A DNA stretch of 64,000 nt from Pandoraea apista (GTDB lineage: Bacteria > Pseudomonadota > Gammaproteobacteria > Burkholderiales > Burkholderiaceae). This document shows, one piece after another, positions 24,493 to 32,947 of this stretch; position 1 is the first letter of the stretch; each line of letters opens with the position of its first letter. The notes beneath the pieces are model-generated. The model saw nothing but the letters and a program-made list of their open reading frames with translations. It made no database searches and was not told where the DNA came from. The position numbers and the translations under genes are program-made. Location: the NCBI RefSeq assembly GCF_001465595.2, contig NZ_CP013481.2, positions 3,472,001-3,536,000 on the forward strand, in the 5' to 3' direction.

Positions 24493-24582
24493 GGAGGCGT
24501 GCCAGAGTGGTTTAATGGACTGGTCTTGAAAACCAGCGAAGGGGTAACCCTTCCGTGAGTTCGAATCTCACCGCCTCCGCCA
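24493..24582 (+). tRNA. tRNA-Ser (anticodon UGA)
   Basis: A 90-nt class II tRNA. The acceptor GGAGGCG (24493-24499) pairs with CGCCTCC (24572-24578), followed by discriminator G and an encoded CCA. The anticodon stem CTGGT/ACCAG encloses loop CTTGAAA with anticodon TGA. A long variable arm (CGAAGGGGTAACCCTTCCG) and the T loop TTCGAATC are present. The sequence 3' of it changes character and leads into an accessory island, so its 3' end may be an integration site. Confidence 0.96.
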
Positions 24583-24871
24583 GTTTTTCCCTTAATAGCA
24601 ACGTTTGCGGCCGCTAACTCGCGGGCTAACTGCCCTGCGCTCTTTAGCTCTGCCGGAAATTAGCATTCGGACGAGCAAGCGCGACCATTTTGCAACGATC
24701 GGAAAAGGATCTACATCGGTAATATCGCGATGCCGAAGAGCCGATCGGCCCCCTGTTGGCCCTCCAACTTGACGCCGCTCCGCGCCGGACGGGACGATCT
24801 GAGCGCACCCATCATTACCCCAATAAGTTTGAGGTACGATACGTTTTCCCAGATCGAAAACATCAAGAAAA
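24583..24871. other. junction between tRNA-Ser and the accessory island; no convincing gene
   Basis: 289 nt without a supported ORF. GCTAACT occurs twice as a direct repeat 12 bp apart (24613-24619 and 24625-24631), about 30 nt beyond the tRNA CCA end, which might be an integrase arm site. Base composition shifts from GC-rich to AT-rich towards 24830. No second copy of the tRNA 3' end was found by eye in the window. Confidence 0.4.
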
Positions 24872-26338
24872 ATGAAAACAAAACACGACCTCAAGATCTA
24901 TTTCTCAGATTTCTTTGGCGTCACGCCAACCGCCGTTGAGGATTATGGGGCTTTCAACATCTCTCTCCTTGGCGACCTCCCGCTATTCATTGACCCCTTT
25001 CTTCTCTTCAACAGCGAAAACAAAGATTACCAAATACTTCATGACGAAATAATTAAGTACATGCTCTTCCTTAAGAAAAAATCGTCAGGAGAGCTTCCAA
25101 AAGAATTGGTTAAGGCATGGTTTTACTTCCCAGAAGTTAAGCAAAACTGGTTCGGCTACAGCAAAACTGGAAACGACGGACGCGGCCTAGGAAAAGAGTT
25201 TGCATTTTCACTAAAAAGAAACTTCATTTCAGCGTTTGCGGATTTTGGCAATGAATCGCGAACAGGCACTCACCTCGGAAAACTTACCCTCATAAAAAAT
25301 GGCGTTGGGAAAGACAACATTAGCGACTTTACATGCAATCTCATAAAAGGTTTTTTAGCAGAGTACACTGAAAATTTCGCAAAAAATCACATAGATCCGA
25401 AATACTTATCAAAATTCAACATCGGAAAGACTAGCTTTAACTACAAAACTGAGAGTTGGGCAACGAAAGAATACACACTTCCCAAATTCGGCAACGATTT
25501 CGTGCTGCTCACCCCCGTCAACATACTTACTAAAGACGATGCTTGGATATCCCACAACGGTTTTGTTGAGGATTTTTCACGAGTTCTAAGCACAGTAGAA
25601 AATGCCGTTCTACGCAAGCAGATGGAGAACTATTTTATCTCGGCACTTCCGACCCAACCGACAAAAACGGAACGGGAGTCGGCAATCGAAAAGGTTGTGC
25701 AGCAGTACCCAGAATTGCTTGATTTGTACGTAAAAATTCAGGAAGACTCGTCGTCTGATGCCACATCAACCAGCGCGGACAAGGTGCAAGCCGCGTATAC
25801 AATTTTCGTTAACCAGATAAAGCATCTCGCGAGCCTTCTTGATAAGACAAAATTCTACGAAACAAACACCAGCAGCTATACAGAGGGAATGAAAAGAATT
25901 CAATTCCTCAAAGACGTGATCGAACAACAGGACGGATATAGATTATTTTACATCGATGGAAAACCGATATCCCGAGAAAGCGATATTCAAATTATGTTCA
26001 AGCTAACGTGGTTTGCATCGTCATATAGCGCAGACGCCGAAGTGAACAACGGACGAGGTCCAGCAGATTTTCTCGTATCTTATGGAAGTGCAGACAAATC
26101 AATAATTGAATTCAAACTTGCGAAAAACACTCAACTTGAAAAAAATCTGAAGAAACAAGCCGAAATATACTCACAGGCATCAAAAGCCACGCACCCACCA
26201 ATTAAAGTCATATTGTTTTTTACACAACCAGAACTTACAAAAACAACTTCTATACTCCAGAAGCTCAAGCTCGACAAATGTCCGGAGATTGTCCTCATCG
26301 ACGGACGCGGAAAGATTTCCGCGTCGAAAGCAACATAA
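24872..26338 (+). CDS. uncharacterised protein with C-terminal PD-(D/E)XK nuclease-like motif; candidate defence gene
   Basis: 488 aa, strikingly AT-rich with A/T-ending codons, unlike the GC-rich flanks, so recently acquired. The N-terminal half has DYGAFNISLLGDLPLFIDP, KQNWFGYSKTGNDGRGLG and GVGKDNISDFTCNLIKG. The C-terminus shows a nuclease-like pattern: D399 in GRGPADFLVSYG, E413-F-K415 in SIIEFKLAKNTQ, and Q429-x-x-x-Y433 in KKQAEIYSQAS. That D-(13)-ExK-(13)-QxxxY arrangement fits PD-(D/E)XK enzymes. From memory, similar N-termini occur in proteins of defence islands, but I cannot verify this. It is the first gene after tRNA-Ser and converges on an integrase remnant 8 nt away. Confidence 0.75.
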   Translation: MKTKHDLKIYFSDFFGVTPTAVEDYGAFNISLLGDLPLFIDPFLLFNSENKDYQILHDEIIKYMLFLKKKSSGELPKELVKAWFYFPEVKQNWFGYSKTGNDGRGLGKEFAFSLKRNFISAFADFGNESRTGTHLGKLTLIKNGVGKDNISDFTCNLIKGFLAEYTENFAKNHIDPKYLSKFNIGKTSFNYKTESWATKEYTLPKFGNDFVLLTPVNILTKDDAWISHNGFVEDFSRVLSTVENAVLRKQMENYFISALPTQPTKTERESAIEKVVQQYPELLDLYVKIQEDSSSDATSTSADKVQAAYTIFVNQIKHLASLLDKTKFYETNTSSYTEGMKRIQFLKDVIEQQDGYRLFYIDGKPISRESDIQIMFKLTWFASSYSADAEVNNGRGPADFLVSYGSADKSIIEFKLAKNTQLEKNLKKQAEIYSQASKATHPPIKVILFFTQPELTKTTSILQKLKLDKCPEIVLIDGRGKISASKAT

Positions 26339-26346
26339 AGCGTTTG

Positions 26347-27138
26347 TCACTTAGTGGGGTCCACCTTGTCCCCGCGACGGTTGCGCATGTATCGCTCGGT
26401 AGTCATTATGCTTGTGTGCCCCAGCTGCTTTTGGGCTGCACGGACATCGCCGGAACTTTCGACCGTGTCCGTGCCAGCCTTAGCTCGCAGATCTCGAAAC
26501 TGAATGTTTTGAGCACCACTTAGCCCGGATCGCATCCGAGCCTCGGCGAACATCGACTGAATCGACTTGATGCCGATCGCATCACCCCGCTCATTGACAA
26601 CCAGTCGCGTGCTGCACTTTTGAATTTCTTTTTGTTTTTTAATACGCTGCAACGTCTGCTTGAGTTGTCCGGCGACGCAAATACGTAGTTTGACTCGCGT
26701 CTTCCCTTGCTGCACGCACAAGTAACCATCCATGATGTCCTGATCCCTCATTTTCAGAACGTCAGACGGCCGCTGCCCCGTCAAGTAGGCCAAGTCCATT
26801 GCATCACGCAAGGGCTGGCGCGCATTCTCATATATTGCGCGGTATTGAGCATCCTCAATATAGACGTCTCTTGCTCGCTCTCGGAACCCTTTTATTCCGG
26901 CGCAAGGATTTTGTAAATTTGTATACCCCCACTCTCGAGCCTTGTTCCAGAAGTGCGAGAACAAGGCCTTCTCTCGATTCGCACGCACCTGTCCTTCCGT
27001 ACCTTTGACTTCCTTTCCGCCAGCGCGCAGGGTGTCTACAGTGGTCCGCACACGCCAATCCAAATACTGGCGGATGTTGATCGGCTTGCTCTCATCAAGT
27101 GGAGCTGGCGGGTCGTCAAAGAAGGCGTAGTGTAGTGG
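26347..27138 (-). pseudogene. tyrosine recombinase/integrase, 5'-truncated
   Basis: The C-terminal catalytic domain is present: TGQRPSDVL (first catalytic Arg), FRDLRAKAGTD (second Arg, with the usual preceding His replaced) and LGHTSIMTTERYMR (His and nucleophile Tyr). Upstream, the frame stays open through YAFFDDPPAPLDESKPINIRQYLDW, then hits TGA at 27139-27141. The N-terminal arm-binding/SAM-like region of a full integrase (normally about 330 aa or more) is missing and no start codon with an RBS is evident; a TTG at 27063 gives 238 aa. Probably inactive, a relic of the mobile element that entered at tRNA-Ser. Confidence 0.8.
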
Positions 27139-27426: not shown

Positions 27427-29538
27427 TTATTTCAACGGTTCCGTTACCTGAGTGGAATGCCCCCAAGGCTGTACGCCGACGGTGAGCGGACCTAGCGTAC
27501 CGATGCCAAATTCAATCCCGGTCGCCCCTCCATACGAATGGGTGATCGCACCACTAACGTTAACCCTAAAAGGTGTTGGAATGGAAATGAACATCTGATT
27601 GCCGTCCCCTGCAAGGAAACTGCTAGTTCCTTTGGCGCTGTCAACACCAAAGATCCAGCCAACGGTGGCGCTTAAACCAGGCCGCCAAGAAATTGAAGAT
27701 GGATTTGTTTGAGCCACGCCCCCTGATAGATAGGTAGATCCATCGTAGAAATTGATGACGCCGGTCACAACCCCAGATAAGGCCCCGGTATTCAATGTTC
27801 CGTAGTCGGGCTTAAGACCACGACCACTTGTGCCCAACCCTGCTGAATAGTCCCCCGTATTAAATCCCGGTGGAAACGGCCCGTTACCTTGACTATTCGG
27901 CAAATCGGCGGGCGAGCGCCCAATACTCTCAGACGACGATACGTTCCAGCTGTACGGCGAACTTCGGCCCCCAGTATTCGCTGCGATCAGGTCGCGCAAC
28001 GCATCGGGAGGTGGGGATAGCATCGCAGCATTCTGGACAAGATACTTGTTTCCGGACGTATCGATGAAAACACGCATGCCGGTACTATCGTAAATCTCCT
28101 TTGCCTTTGTGTCGGCATTGAGCGGCACTACCATTCCCGTCCACGCGGTCTCGCCGTAGGCGCTGTTATTGGCTGAGCGCATAGCATTCTCAATTTGATC
28201 TATCGAGATCGGAGATCCATCTTGGTTGACGATGCCTCGCCGTCTTGCATCCGCCAAGACCCTCTTAGCGAGCACCTTTTCATCCGGATGCAACTGCCGA
28301 TTAAACCGATCAACGTTATACCCGGTGAACGCCCCAGAACTTCCACCAACCGCTGCCCCCACCGCCGTACCAACGCCCGTCGCCACAATCTGTGCCAACG
28401 CCTGATCGATGTCGGCATTCCCCGTCGGATGTGCCTTCTGAATGTTCTCGCTCAGTTCGTTCAGCGCGCCACCAAGCTTCGACGTAAGCCCTGCGCCTAG
28501 CGCACCACCCAAGGCATTCCCGCCTCCTAAGCCTGCGATGATCGCTCCACCTGCAGCGTGCATTGCCGCACGGTAGTCACCGCCCTCCTTCCAGTCGTCA
28601 GCTTCCTTCTGATACTGCGCCTTCAACTCCGGATCGGTCGTAGCATCGGCCAGCTTTTGCGCCGCCTCTCGCTTCTTATCTGCATACGTCCCGATATCCC
28701 GCGCCACCGCTTCCCCGGCCGCCGTCGCGGCCGCCATCAGGCGCGACTGATTGTTAAGCAGGTTCTGCAAATCCGGTGTGCGATTCACCGTTTCGTTCAG
28801 GTTCGACGTGTCGCGGTTCAGACTGGCGAGATCCTGCGTCTGATTCGCGCCGTTCGTCAGCGTGATCGTGCCTTCGCTCACGCCGCTGCGCGTCACACCT
28901 CGCTCGCTCCCGCTCTCCGACTGCGGCAGCATGGGTGCGATGCCACCCGTGTTCTTGCCCGAGCTCGGCCCCGTCGTACGCTCGTTAGCGCCGCCATTAC
29001 CGAACGTGCCCCCGCCGCCAAAGCCGAAGCTGTTCGCGCTGTAGTCGGAATGGTTCTGGATATCGGAGAACGTCAGCGTGCCCGTCGTCAGTTGGTTCTT
29101 CGACGGATCTGCCGTACTCGCGATGTACGCGCCCTTCAGATCCGTATTGCCCTTGACGTCGACGTCGAACCCGCCAGACCCGGCCTTAATCCCAGATTGC
29201 TCAACAACACCAGCGTAGTTGCCGCTCGCGTTACCGCGCGAATAGCTGAAGCTGCCCGACGCACCTCCCATGCTCGCGCTGAAGCCACCGCCCATACTCT
29301 CCTGATGTGCCGAACTCTCGCTCGTGTCCTGCACGCTGGCGATGTTCAGATCGCCGCCCACACGCGCAATCACTTTGTCCGCATTCACATTGCCGCCGAC
29401 GATATTCGTATCGCCGCCGCTCACAATCACTGCCGTATTACTCGCGTTGATATGCGAGTTGTTCTGGAAAGTCGAATCCGAGTTAGCGTCGCCGTTGGAC
29501 TTTGAGAACGATGCCGATACACCCCAGCCACTGGTCAT
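27427..29538 (-). CDS. orphan FhaB/CdiA C-terminal fragment (two-partner-secreted polymorphic toxin)
   Basis: 703 aa, only the C-terminal part of proteins normally over 2000 aa. Residues about 1-250 are filamentous haemagglutinin repeat material (VSGGDTNIVGGNVNADKV, GGFSASMGGASGSFSYS). About 300-400 is the Ala/Gly-rich pretoxin region, ending VDRFNRQLHPDEKVLAKRVL, a common Burkholderiales CDI element; no VENN motif was seen. The last roughly 170 residues (GALSGVVTGVINFYDG...GATGIEFGIGTLGP) are glycine-rich with beta-strand character and may be the toxin. The frame is closed by TAA just upstream of its ATG, and no signal peptide or TPS domain is present, so it is a displaced cassette. Confidence 0.8.
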   Translation of the reverse strand: MTSGWGVSASFSKSNGDANSDSTFQNNSHINASNTAVIVSGGDTNIVGGNVNADKVIARVGGDLNIASVQDTSESSAHQESMGGGFSASMGGASGSFSYSRGNASGNYAGVVEQSGIKAGSGGFDVDVKGNTDLKGAYIASTADPSKNQLTTGTLTFSDIQNHSDYSANSFGFGGGGTFGNGGANERTTGPSSGKNTGGIAPMLPQSESGSERGVTRSGVSEGTITLTNGANQTQDLASLNRDTSNLNETVNRTPDLQNLLNNQSRLMAAATAAGEAVARDIGTYADKKREAAQKLADATTDPELKAQYQKEADDWKEGGDYRAAMHAAGGAIIAGLGGGNALGGALGAGLTSKLGGALNELSENIQKAHPTGNADIDQALAQIVATGVGTAVGAAVGGSSGAFTGYNVDRFNRQLHPDEKVLAKRVLADARRRGIVNQDGSPISIDQIENAMRSANNSAYGETAWTGMVVPLNADTKAKEIYDSTGMRVFIDTSGNKYLVQNAAMLSPPPDALRDLIAANTGGRSSPYSWNVSSSESIGRSPADLPNSQGNGPFPPGFNTGDYSAGLGTSGRGLKPDYGTLNTGALSGVVTGVINFYDGSTYLSGGVAQTNPSSISWRPGLSATVGWIFGVDSAKGTSSFLAGDGNQMFISIPTPFRVNVSGAITHSYGGATGIEFGIGTLGPLTVGVQPWGHSTQVTEPLK

Positions 29539-30014: not shown

Positions 30015-30239
30015 ATGAGTGGCAAGCGGTACACGGATGAGTTCAAGATCGAGGCAGTCAAACAGGTAACCGAACGCGGTCATTCGGTGGCAGAGGTGGC
30101 CCAGCGTTTGGGTATCACAACCCACAGCCTTTACGCATGGAAACTGAAGTTCGGCAGGCCCGACGCCGTGCGGCAGGCGGAGCTGGATCAGAACGCCGAG
30201 GTTCGGCGACTGAAGGCCGAGCTCAAAGCGCATGACTGA
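30015..30239 (+). pseudogene. IS3-family orfA, frameshifted near its end
   Basis: Helix-turn-helix transposase N-terminal protein (YTDEFKIEAVKQVTERGHS, AQRLGITTHSLYAWK), 74 aa to a premature stop. The expected tail (MTEERDILKK...) continues in another frame from 30232, implying a one-base insertion at the CTCAAAGCG stretch. A run of nine A follows at 30255-30263, where IS3 elements often use programmed frameshifting; its length no longer fits. Confidence 0.85.
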
Positions 30240-30307
30240 GGAACGGGACATTCTAAAAAAAAAGCCGCCGCGTACTTTGCAAAGGGATAACGGCAAGGTA
30301 CGCGTTC

Positions 30308-31158
30308 ATGCGAGCCCATCTCGGCGAGTTCCACCTGCACTCGATGTGCCGAGTCCTCGGCGTGCATCGCAGCGGCTATTACGTCTGGCAGCGGCAGACA
30401 GTCGGAGCCCGCAAGCGCGAGGATGATCGATTGCTCGGTTTGATCAAGCATTCCTGGCTAGCCAGCGGGGGCGTCTATGGCTACCGCAAGGTCACGGTGG
30501 ATTTGCGTGAACCGGGCGAAACGTGCAGCCGTCACCGCGTCCATCGCATCATGAAAGGCGAAGGTCTGCGGGCAGAAGTGGGCTATGGCAGCAAGCCCTG
30601 CTATCGGGGTGGTCCAGTCGGCGTGATCGCCAACGTGCTGAACCGTGAGTTCGCGCCAATCGCACCGAATCGGGTCTGGGTAACGGATATCACGTGCATC
30701 CGGACTTACGAAGGCTGGCTGTATCTGGCGGCTGTTATGGATCTGTACTCGCGCCAGATCGTTGGTTGGGCTACGCGCTCGACGATGACCAGCGATCTGG
30801 TTTTACAGGCGTTGTTGGCTGCGGTTTGGATACGCAAACCGGGACCCGGTGTCATGGTGCATTCAGATCCGGGCAGTCAATTCACGAGCGATGACTGGCA
30901 GTCATTCCTGAAGGCGCACCATATGGTGCCAAGCATGAGTCGGCGCGGTAATTGCCACGACAATGCCGTGGCCGAGAGCTTCTTCAGCGCCCTAAAAAGG
31001 AGCGAATCAAGCGGCGCATCTATCCGAGTCGGGCGAGCGCGACCTCGGACCTGTTCGATTACATCGAAGTGTTTTATAACTCGGTTCGTCGGCATGGTTC
31101 CGCCGGCGATCTTTCACCGATTGAGTTTGAGCGGCGCTACGCGCCAAACGGCTCGTGA
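30308..31158 (+). pseudogene. IS3-family orfB transposase, frameshifted
   Basis: DDE integrase-core transposase. VWVTDITCI gives the first Asp and VMVHSDPGSQF the second; DNAVAESFFSALK gives the Glu. At about 31000 a run of five A shifts the frame: the true C-terminus (KKERIKRRIYPSRASATSD ... ERRYAPNGS, stop at 31158) is in the next frame, while the upstream frame runs on out of register to 31168. Start at ATG 30308. Inactive. Confidence 0.88.
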
Positions 31159-31159
31159 G

Positions 31160-31184
31160 TGTCTATGAAACTCTGGCCGGTCCA
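31160..31184 (-). repeat. right terminal inverted repeat of the IS3-family element
   Basis: Begins TGTCTATGAAAC and ends GGCCGGTCCA; the inverse of 29952-29976 with four mismatches. It starts two bases after the reconstructed orfB stop. Confidence 0.85.
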
Positions 31185-31720: not shown

Positions 31721-32331
31721 GCGAGTCCCCCTCTAATATTTGCCCACACAAGACCGTCCTCGGCCATAGTCGGCAAAAATGGAACGAATATCTCGGCCAC
31801 GGTACCCATCCAACGATATCTTCGCAGCCCCCCATTCAATAGACTAAACCGGGTTTGACGGATATCGAGTTTGCGGGACGGGATTCCGGCGTTTGGAAAA
31901 ACCGGATCAAAACGCATCGCCACGTCAGCACAAGAATACTCCCCGGCTGCTTCGAGCGTCAAACGCATTGCTTATTGGTGTGGGGGAGACTGTTTGTGGC
32001 GGACAAATGCGCCGAAGTGAGCCTCCCCAAACGCTATTTGACTGCCTGTAGACGGCTGCCTTCGACCGATTCTGTTGCAGAACTCGGCGCAATCGATCTC
32101 GCAAGGTTCTTCTACCCTCTTCCCATCAAGTCGCGCAGGCGACTCAGCCGCTCGCTCGTCAGCAACGTTGACGCTCAAATGTCCGCGCAAAAGCGTCGAT
32201 GAACGGCCGGAGTTGGCTGTGGATTCCGCCGGGCATTCGCATGCCTCACGGCCAAAAATCATCTAAAAGGAAAATGGTATCGGCGTCGACTGCTCAAAGA
32301 GACCGCGATATATTCCGTTCGGCGGATTCCA
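31721..32331. other. gene-poor stretch of the island
   Basis: About 610 nt upstream of the histidine-rich gene and downstream of the BrnT-BrnA gene. Open frames on either strand (about 80-115 codons) have no recognisable domains, no good ribosome sites and odd composition; I see no gene. The promoter of the histidine-rich gene must lie at its left end. Confidence 0.4.
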
Positions 32332-32898
32332 TCACACCCAATGCGGATGCTCTGCAATGAACTGCCGCAGCGCCGCATCGATACGCGTTTGCCAACCGCT
32401 ACCGGACACCTTGAAGTAATCGACAACCTCCGGCGACAATCGAATGTTGATTCGCTCCTTCGTTATTTCAGCCTTGGGCCGACCACGCGGCTTGAGCAAT
32501 TTCTCGTCAGCCTCTTCGCCCACGATCCCCGGCAACACCTCATTCGCAGGCCGCGCCTTGGCGAAGTCCTTCTTCGTCCCTTCCGGATTCTGCGAATCCT
32601 GACGCATTTGCTTTTTGATCTTAGCGTCCTCAGCCGGCGTAGGAAAGACGGTTCCCGGCTTAAGTTTCGGCATAGCGTTCACCGCTCGCGAATTCGCCTT
32701 GCGCAAGCTGATGACGTGTATTTTTTCTGTGCGAGCCACGAGGGCCAATGCGAACAGCCGGTCACCGATCTGCCCGAACGCCCAGTAACGTCTTTCGCCA
32801 TAGTCGGCTAGAACCTCCTCTTCGATCACCGCGCTGCCCCATTCAACATCCTGGGCTACCGTGAACGGCACCCCCCGTTCCCGCAGTTCAAATTTCAC
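32332..32898 (-). CDS. BrnT-BrnA toxin-antitoxin fused in one frame
   Basis: 188 aa from GTG 32898 (GGAGG 5 nt upstream). Residues about 1-73 match BrnT (ERGVPFTVAQDVEW, YGERRYWAFGQIGDRLFALA, IHVISLRKANSR), a RelE-fold ribonuclease toxin, though the usual first residues are replaced. From residue 76 the sequence is a full BrnA antitoxin (MPKLKPGTVFPTPAEDAKI ... ITKERINIRLSPEVVDYFK, GWQTRIDAALRQFI). Normally these are two genes. Shifting the junction frame yields CGG TGA just before the BrnA ATG, so a small indel probably removed the brnT stop. BrnA may still be made from the internal ATG. Confidence 0.8.
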   Translation of the reverse strand: MKFELRERGVPFTVAQDVEWGSAVIEEEVLADYGERRYWAFGQIGDRLFALALVARTEKIHVISLRKANSRAVNAMPKLKPGTVFPTPAEDAKIKKQMRQDSQNPEGTKKDFAKARPANEVLPGIVGEEADEKLLKPRGRPKAEITKERINIRLSPEVVDYFKVSGSGWQTRIDAALRQFIAEHPHWV

Positions 32899-32947
32899 CG
32901 CCGCCTCCAGAGTTCTTTGTTTACCGTGGTAGTGGCTACTGACTTTT

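Follow-up and report, generated by a model that had tools for sequence, protein, structure and literature searches.

A 64,000-nucleotide stretch of Pandoraea apista DNA (contig NZ_CP013481.2, positions 3,472,001 to 3,536,000; hereafter the window) carries, in an integrative element at a serine transfer RNA gene (tRNA-Ser), a single gene of the DUF8370 family. Judging from its sequence and settings, we consider it probable that this gene is defence cargo and encodes a self-contained, single-protein nuclease directed against phages or plasmids. The defence role is favoured because mobile DNA carries the gene among many bacteria at known sites of anti-virus genes. The family is already on record, under its DUF name and, in part, as a candidate in PADLOC; what is new is a probable PD-(D/E)XK effector joined to an unmatched N-terminal domain. 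Family membership, conservation and genomic contexts are reported below as observed.

The open reading frame (ORF) begins with ATG about 290 bp after the tRNA, at exactly the coordinates of the initial annotation. Its content of guanine and cytosine (GC), 41.7% against 60.6% for the whole window, bears out the foreign, AT-rich composition that had been remarked upon. The layout of the gene is as follows.

24872 to 26338, plus strand: DUF8370-family gene, 488 residues, with an N-terminal domain (residues 1-245), a helical middle (about 245-355) and a PD-(D/E)XK-like domain (about 356-480)
24872 to 25606, plus strand: N-terminal domain, without a match among solved structures and holding 45 of the 56 invariant columns
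25976 to 26305, plus strand: C-terminal probable nuclease domain (residues 369-478), from a predicted model and a Pfam PDDEXK_9 match under its cut-off
26066 to 26068, 26108 to 26110 and 26114 to 26116, plus strand: codons of the putative catalytic residues D399, E413 and K415

The C-terminal part contains the pattern D399-(13)-E413-x-K415 followed by Q429-xxx-Y433. This putative catalytic pattern is not due to chance, since each of the 87 loci compared (80 genomic, six viral and one paralogue) retains the complete set of five residues; L091 has 10 in-frame stops and L022 has one. E413 and K415 are invariant in an alignment of 59 sequences, where D399, Q429 and Y433 are each conserved at 90% or more. 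The Pfam family PDDEXK_9 (PF08011) matches residues 369-435 with an expectation value (E) of 6.6e-5 and 23.3 bits, short of its curated cut-off of 25.5, and the protein is not assigned to that family; one homologue (P0076) carries PF08011 in a precomputed domain listing. The full-length predicted model scores 83.7 in the predicted local distance difference test (pLDDT) and places, in order, a helix (369-380), a strand bearing E413-x-K415 (412-416), a helix (422-435), a strand (444-449), a helix (452-464) and a strand (473-477). The model is consistent with a C-terminal PD-(D/E)XK core, as initially proposed, though the loop around D399 (385-406) falls below a pLDDT of 50 and the fold matches are weak. 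In the structure comparison of the model, 24 of the 50 VIA-align rows, ranks 2-5 included, are what we take to be proteins of the PD-(D/E)XK fold. Lectin matches among solved structures, at E=0.076 and up, were regarded as chance, and profile searches of solved structures with profiles A1 and A4 gave no match at E ≤1.

The N-terminal module had also been described as conserved-looking, and a closer comparison strengthens that description. In the 59-sequence alignment, 45 of 56 invariant columns fall within residues 1-245, five within 246-355 and six within 356-488; mean conservation is about equal in the front and rear parts (0.67 and 0.69) and lower in the middle (0.55). Residues N92, W93, G95, N101, G103, G105, G146, D148, S151 and D152, from the originally quoted motifs, are invariant in this alignment, N92 being kept in 79 of the 87 loci of the wider set. 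Across both branches of the family (97 rows), D35, E88, D148, S151, D152 and T166 are invariant and D41 is conserved at 90% or more. Acidic and polar positions kept this strictly may form a site of binding or catalysis. Modelled alone, the domain reaches a mean pLDDT of 82.3 and a predicted template modelling score of 0.83, with residues 11-220 mostly well predicted apart from a dip at 131-150; no match to it was found among solved structures. Between the two domains, at about residues 262-350, a SLATT_6 or two-transmembrane (2TM) effector was considered and rejected, its scores (E=0.017 in Pfam, 0.0046 in NCBIfam and 0.003 in PADLOC) being far below the cut-off wherever one is given. A scan of 24580-26500 for promoters and terminators returned fewer sites than did shuffled sequences.

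The family is large and widely scattered. A protein search retrieved 6017 homologues at E ≤0.001 among 7999 scored candidates, 120 of which were listed with details; the named close homologues, 60-72% identical, are mostly from Burkholderiales (Burkholderia, Mitsuaria, Roseateles, Variovorax and Herbaspirillum, for example). In the precomputed listing, the Pfam domains PF28130 and PF28123 are carried by the window protein (P0001) and nearly all of these 120, with PF28123 alone in P0107. A paralogue in the same genome (L002, G000:C1:3250001-3251407), 26% identical, heads a separate branch, for which a search with the paralogue gave 832 homologues among 7999 scored candidates. With one genome scanned per species, 384 encoding loci were obtained, and a tree of the best 80 of these mixes phyla, Pseudomonadota alone needing eight changes, of which at least six are forced by well supported branches. 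This mixing fits gene transfer but is no proof of it. Among the 32 genomes of the window's genus, only the window's own has a match. Matches occur in 16 of 72,556 plasmid records, and in 10 of these they span 80% or more of the protein. A nearly identical pair, a Methanobrevibacter bin (L027) and a Bacteroidota bin (L050) joined by very short branches, raises the suspicion of mis-binning, and we therefore claim no archaeal occurrence. Searches of the open-licence literature, supplements aside, for DUF8370, PDC-M36, PF28130, PF28123, PDLC04597 and two E. coli accessions found no paper naming or testing the family, and the text of PMC9252829 contains no PDC terms.

Copies of the gene also occur in Escherichia coli. 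Using the DNA of a Mangrovibacter homologue as the query, which more divergent copies could escape, we found copies in 17 of 5426 genomes, all chromosomal and 80-81% identical. All 17 adjoin a P4-like integrase, and in 16 the integrase gene (int), the family gene and psu are contiguous. A combined int-gene-psu query (3808 bases) is matched in full, or in all but 7 bases, by 16 of these genomes and over 85% by the seventeenth, because an IS21 element lies between gene and psu. Two annotated E. coli regions show the order tRNA-Leu, integrase, DUF8370 gene, psu, ogr/Delta, sid (or a hypothetical gene) and primase. Other E. coli strains hold a GmrSD-type, a Kiwa KwaB-like or an ATP-binding protein in the same slot. 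The int-psu locus of P4 satellites is described by Rousset et al. 2022 (PMC9122126) as a hotspot and reservoir of anti-phage systems. A viral contig (L086) repeats the order integrase, DUF8370 gene and Psu; the P4 context was seen only there and for the E. coli homologues.

These satellites bear on two readings in which the nuclease has no part in defence. It may serve the maintenance of its carrier satellite or island without being aimed at phages, and its habit of travelling with integrases (Phage_integrase occurs in five of 115 nearest ORFs, surveyed as described below) accords with this. We think it improbable, however, as the gene occurs in unrelated elements that share no partner, and as only 17 of the 5426 E. 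coli genomes match it, compared with 2459 matching some part of the int-gene-psu query; given these numbers, the satellites seem not to need it. A selfish, homing-type nuclease that spreads itself appears very improbable to us. Sites beside tail sheath genes are the kind of place where homing endonucleases occur, and two related IMG/VR contigs (L090:6663-8144 and L091:4937-6194) carry the gene alone, on the opposite strand, beside such a gene, in what by its appearance is a contractile-tailed phage (the sheath domain was scanned in L090; the L091 copy is the one broken by 10 in-frame stops). Together with a locus near terminase and capsid genes (L087) and another that is similar by eye (L088), these insertions weigh against a plain defence role. 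Against homing stands the fact that every E. coli copy occupies one satellite cargo slot, which elsewhere holds the other genes just named. Moreover, viral contigs supplied only six loci of the family, and 50,697 phage records contained no match for the window protein, for paralogue L002 or for the 447-residue ORF adjoining L002. Distant relatives do exist in phages, since PHROG 30194, a viral protein family without an assigned function, matches the window protein over its full length at E=1.5e-26.

Neighbours elsewhere were surveyed among the nearest ORFs of at least 150 residues within 3 kb, called naively (longest, non-overlapping) and not by a gene finder. Of 151 such ORFs, 115 were scanned (loci L003-L063, 61 loci) and 36 left out, with 97 distant ORFs from the 61 loci as a control. 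At E ≤1e-10 the nearest ORFs matched 314 PADLOC families and the distant ones 90, a difference of degree which is suggestive only. Among the most frequent families nearby were mads_2 (four ORFs) and the type I restriction endonuclease, AriA, PtuA, AbiLi and NsnB (three each), although some of these frequent matches possibly represent overlapping ATPase models. No family recurred in more than one distant ORF, yet BrxL, ZorA and SduA were among the families matched there. No constant partner emerged from the nearest ORFs, no Pfam family being present in more than five and no PADLOC family in more than four.

In 19 of 78 loci an ORF on the same strand terminates no more than 60 bp before the gene, and in 15 of 75 one starts no more than 60 bp after it. 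The scanned ORFs directly upstream include several from restriction-modification (RM) systems: hsdR (L009, L030, L036), hsdS (L073) and the type III restriction subunit res (L069), besides an N6/N4 methylase (L015) and a SIR2-like gene (L026). In L009 and L030 (Alcanivoracaceae and Legionellaceae bins), hsdR, the DUF8370 gene and a gene for a YgjP-like metallopeptidase follow one another at spacings of +2 to -58 bases. On a Paenarthrobacter plasmid a methyltransferase, a helicase, a GIY-YIG nuclease and the DUF8370 gene are consecutive; three further plasmid contexts are less telling. An association with defence genes or hotspots is thus seen in homologue neighbours, in the P4 slot, in RM operons and in the relatives of the window's element. 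The initial annotation had named two computable outcomes that would speak against it, a predicted structure without the nuclease fold and homologues never found near mobile or defence genes, and neither came true, although the fold matches are weak.

The element in the window was delimited by comparison with related genomes; its features are the following.

24493 to 24582, plus strand: tRNA-Ser (TGA), the integration site
24525 to 24583, plus strand: left attachment site (attL), the 3' end of the tRNA, duplicated as the right attachment site (attR) in relatives
26347 to 27130, minus strand: relic of an integrase of the tyrosine recombinase type, lacking about 100 N-terminal residues, with homology ending at 27130
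32329 to 32885, strand not assigned: right end of the element, with 89-90% identity to its counterparts in L095 and L096 and including BrnT/BrnA-like sequence
32875 to 32910, plus strand: decayed attR, matching the 3' end of the tRNA (24548-24583) at 28 of 36 positions, followed by a flank resembling that after attR in L097 and L095

A 1 kb query of flank and tRNA matches all 32 genus genomes, 28 over nearly its full length (one in two pieces) and four in part. In the 20 stretches taken downstream of the tRNA, six (L095, L096, L097, L102, L105 and L110) repeat the 3' end of the tRNA, as a copy 41-63 bp long and 1.8-15.5 kb away, which makes tRNA-Ser (TGA) an apparent hotspot of integration in the genus. 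Four stretches (L094-L097) encode an integrase related to the window relic, whose ORF (26347-27063, minus strand; Phage_integrase at E=2.2e-21) has homology to integrases that relatives encode in ORFs of 360 and 366 residues, in keeping with the relic initially suspected. After attR, the sequences of L095 and L097 match the window from 32885 on (80% and 88%). Right ends, flanks beyond attR and the decayed attachment copy coincide at one junction, and hence the element measures about 8.4 kb, from 24525 to about 32910, with the DUF8370 gene, as had been stated, its first cargo after the tRNA. A separate search for attachment sites, at up to 3 mismatches in 23 bases, did not pick up the decayed attR. 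With a truncated integrase and a decayed attR, the element is probably stranded. No psu, sid or P4 primase was noticed by eye among the window ORFs, for which no dedicated search was made.

Relatives of this element carry other defence genes. From their elements 43 ORFs of at least 100 residues were listed and 37 scanned, 10 of these singly; the 10, picked as likely cargo, comprised seven with PADLOC matches and three without. Between tRNA and integrase lie an AbiU-like protein in L097 (E=5e-26), HerA, LmuA and LmuB in L096, and other ORFs in L095, while AbiEii (L097, L105) and a type II methyltransferase (L095) are found elsewhere in the elements. The window's element also holds a 703-residue ORF (27427-29538, minus strand) that opens with haemagglutinin repeats (Fil_haemagg_2, E=1e-19) and closes with a C-terminal Ntox22 domain (E=9e-45). 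It resembles the 3' portion of a gene for a contact-dependent toxin of the CdiA kind, left stranded within the element. ORFs at 30015-31168 (plus strand) resemble, by eye, an IS3-family insertion. At 32332-32898 (minus strand), BrnT toxin-like and BrnA antitoxin-like sequences share one 188-residue ORF; the two are usually separate genes, and DNA resembling this stretch makes up the right end of the L095, L096, L097 and L102 elements.

How the protein might act can be sketched from its two domains. The C-terminal PD-(D/E)XK domain would, from its motif and model, cleave DNA, and the N-terminal domain may be a switch or specificity part that recognises a conserved feature of the infected cell's state or of the nucleic acid invading it, and thereby licenses cleavage by the rear nuclease. 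We favour a trigger conserved in its chemistry, such as a modification of DNA, a DNA structure or a nucleotide, over a particular phage protein, because the N-terminal domain holds most of the invariant residues and is not fast-evolving. The protein could work as a stand-alone, methylase-free (type IV-like) restriction factor or as a nuclease back-up to RM systems, and its placement in RM operons suggests a role in intercepting what escapes RM, or in responding when RM fails. Activity, trigger, substrate and any killing of phage or host are, in all of this, predictions.

A serious, if minority, possibility concerns the mechanism and leaves the defence role intact: the protein may be an abortive-infection effector, whose N-terminal domain senses infection or the loss of RM and whose nuclease then degrades the DNA or RNA of its own cell. 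PrrC, which accompanies a type I RM system, senses the loss of RM function, and the positions of our gene directly after type I and type III RM genes and after the SIR2-like gene, as well as the AbiU-like and AbiEii genes in elements of the same type, are compatible with such behaviour. The lack of a constant partner or inhibitor gene among the 115 nearest ORFs argues otherwise, as does a putative sensor holding most of the invariant residues, unlike the fast-evolving sensors of phage. The present data fit a direct attack on foreign DNA and an abortive attack on the cell itself alike.

A broader proposal is offered tentatively, and we rate it as rather doubtful: that the family constitutes an unrecognised, phylum-spanning set of immune systems made of one protein each. 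In these, a newly folded N-terminal domain with an invariant acidic/polar set (D35, E88, D148, S151 and D152, with D41 nearly so) would bind a conserved signal of invasion and switch on the PD-(D/E)XK nuclease, serving both as stand-alone satellite or island cargo and as a fail-safe in type I and III restriction operons. A single protein shorter than 500 residues, with relatives in the thousands and a place in a satellite slot used elsewhere for anti-phage genes, is in any case tractable at the bench, being one gene with natural E. coli copies and clear predicted catalytic residues. Should it prove active, defence would gain a widespread family that PADLOC models match only in part, and there would follow the question of what an N-terminal domain without a solved relative recognises.

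As in the initial annotation, the protein is tied to no named defence system, the nearest names being DUF8370 and PDC-M36A. It has the listed Pfam domains of DUF8370, PF28130 and PF28123, but this is a name without a function, taken from an E. coli homologue (NZ_OZ547117.1) annotated 'DUF8370 family protein'. PDC-M36A (PDLC04597), an unvalidated phage-defence candidate in PADLOC, resembles the N-terminal half: residues 11-235 align with profile positions 8-225 of 457 at E=6.4e-22, and five other family members match at E from 5.7e-9 (L002) to 6.3e-23 (P0105). The match to our protein stops short of the C-terminal half of that profile, and no constant partner gene was seen beside the homologues surveyed; the M of PDC-M36 presumably stands for multi-gene. 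With the PD-(D/E)XK superfamily (PDDEXK_9, CdiA-CT DNases, type II restriction enzymes and Card1/Can2) the protein shares the D...ExK...QxxxY signature and, in the predicted model, the order of structural elements, albeit with weak match scores and an N-terminal 245 residues that lack a counterpart among solved structures. The int-psu hotspot of P4 satellites, as portrayed in PMC9122126, is the slot of all 17 E. coli copies found, whereas the window copy resides in another kind of element, at tRNA-Ser.
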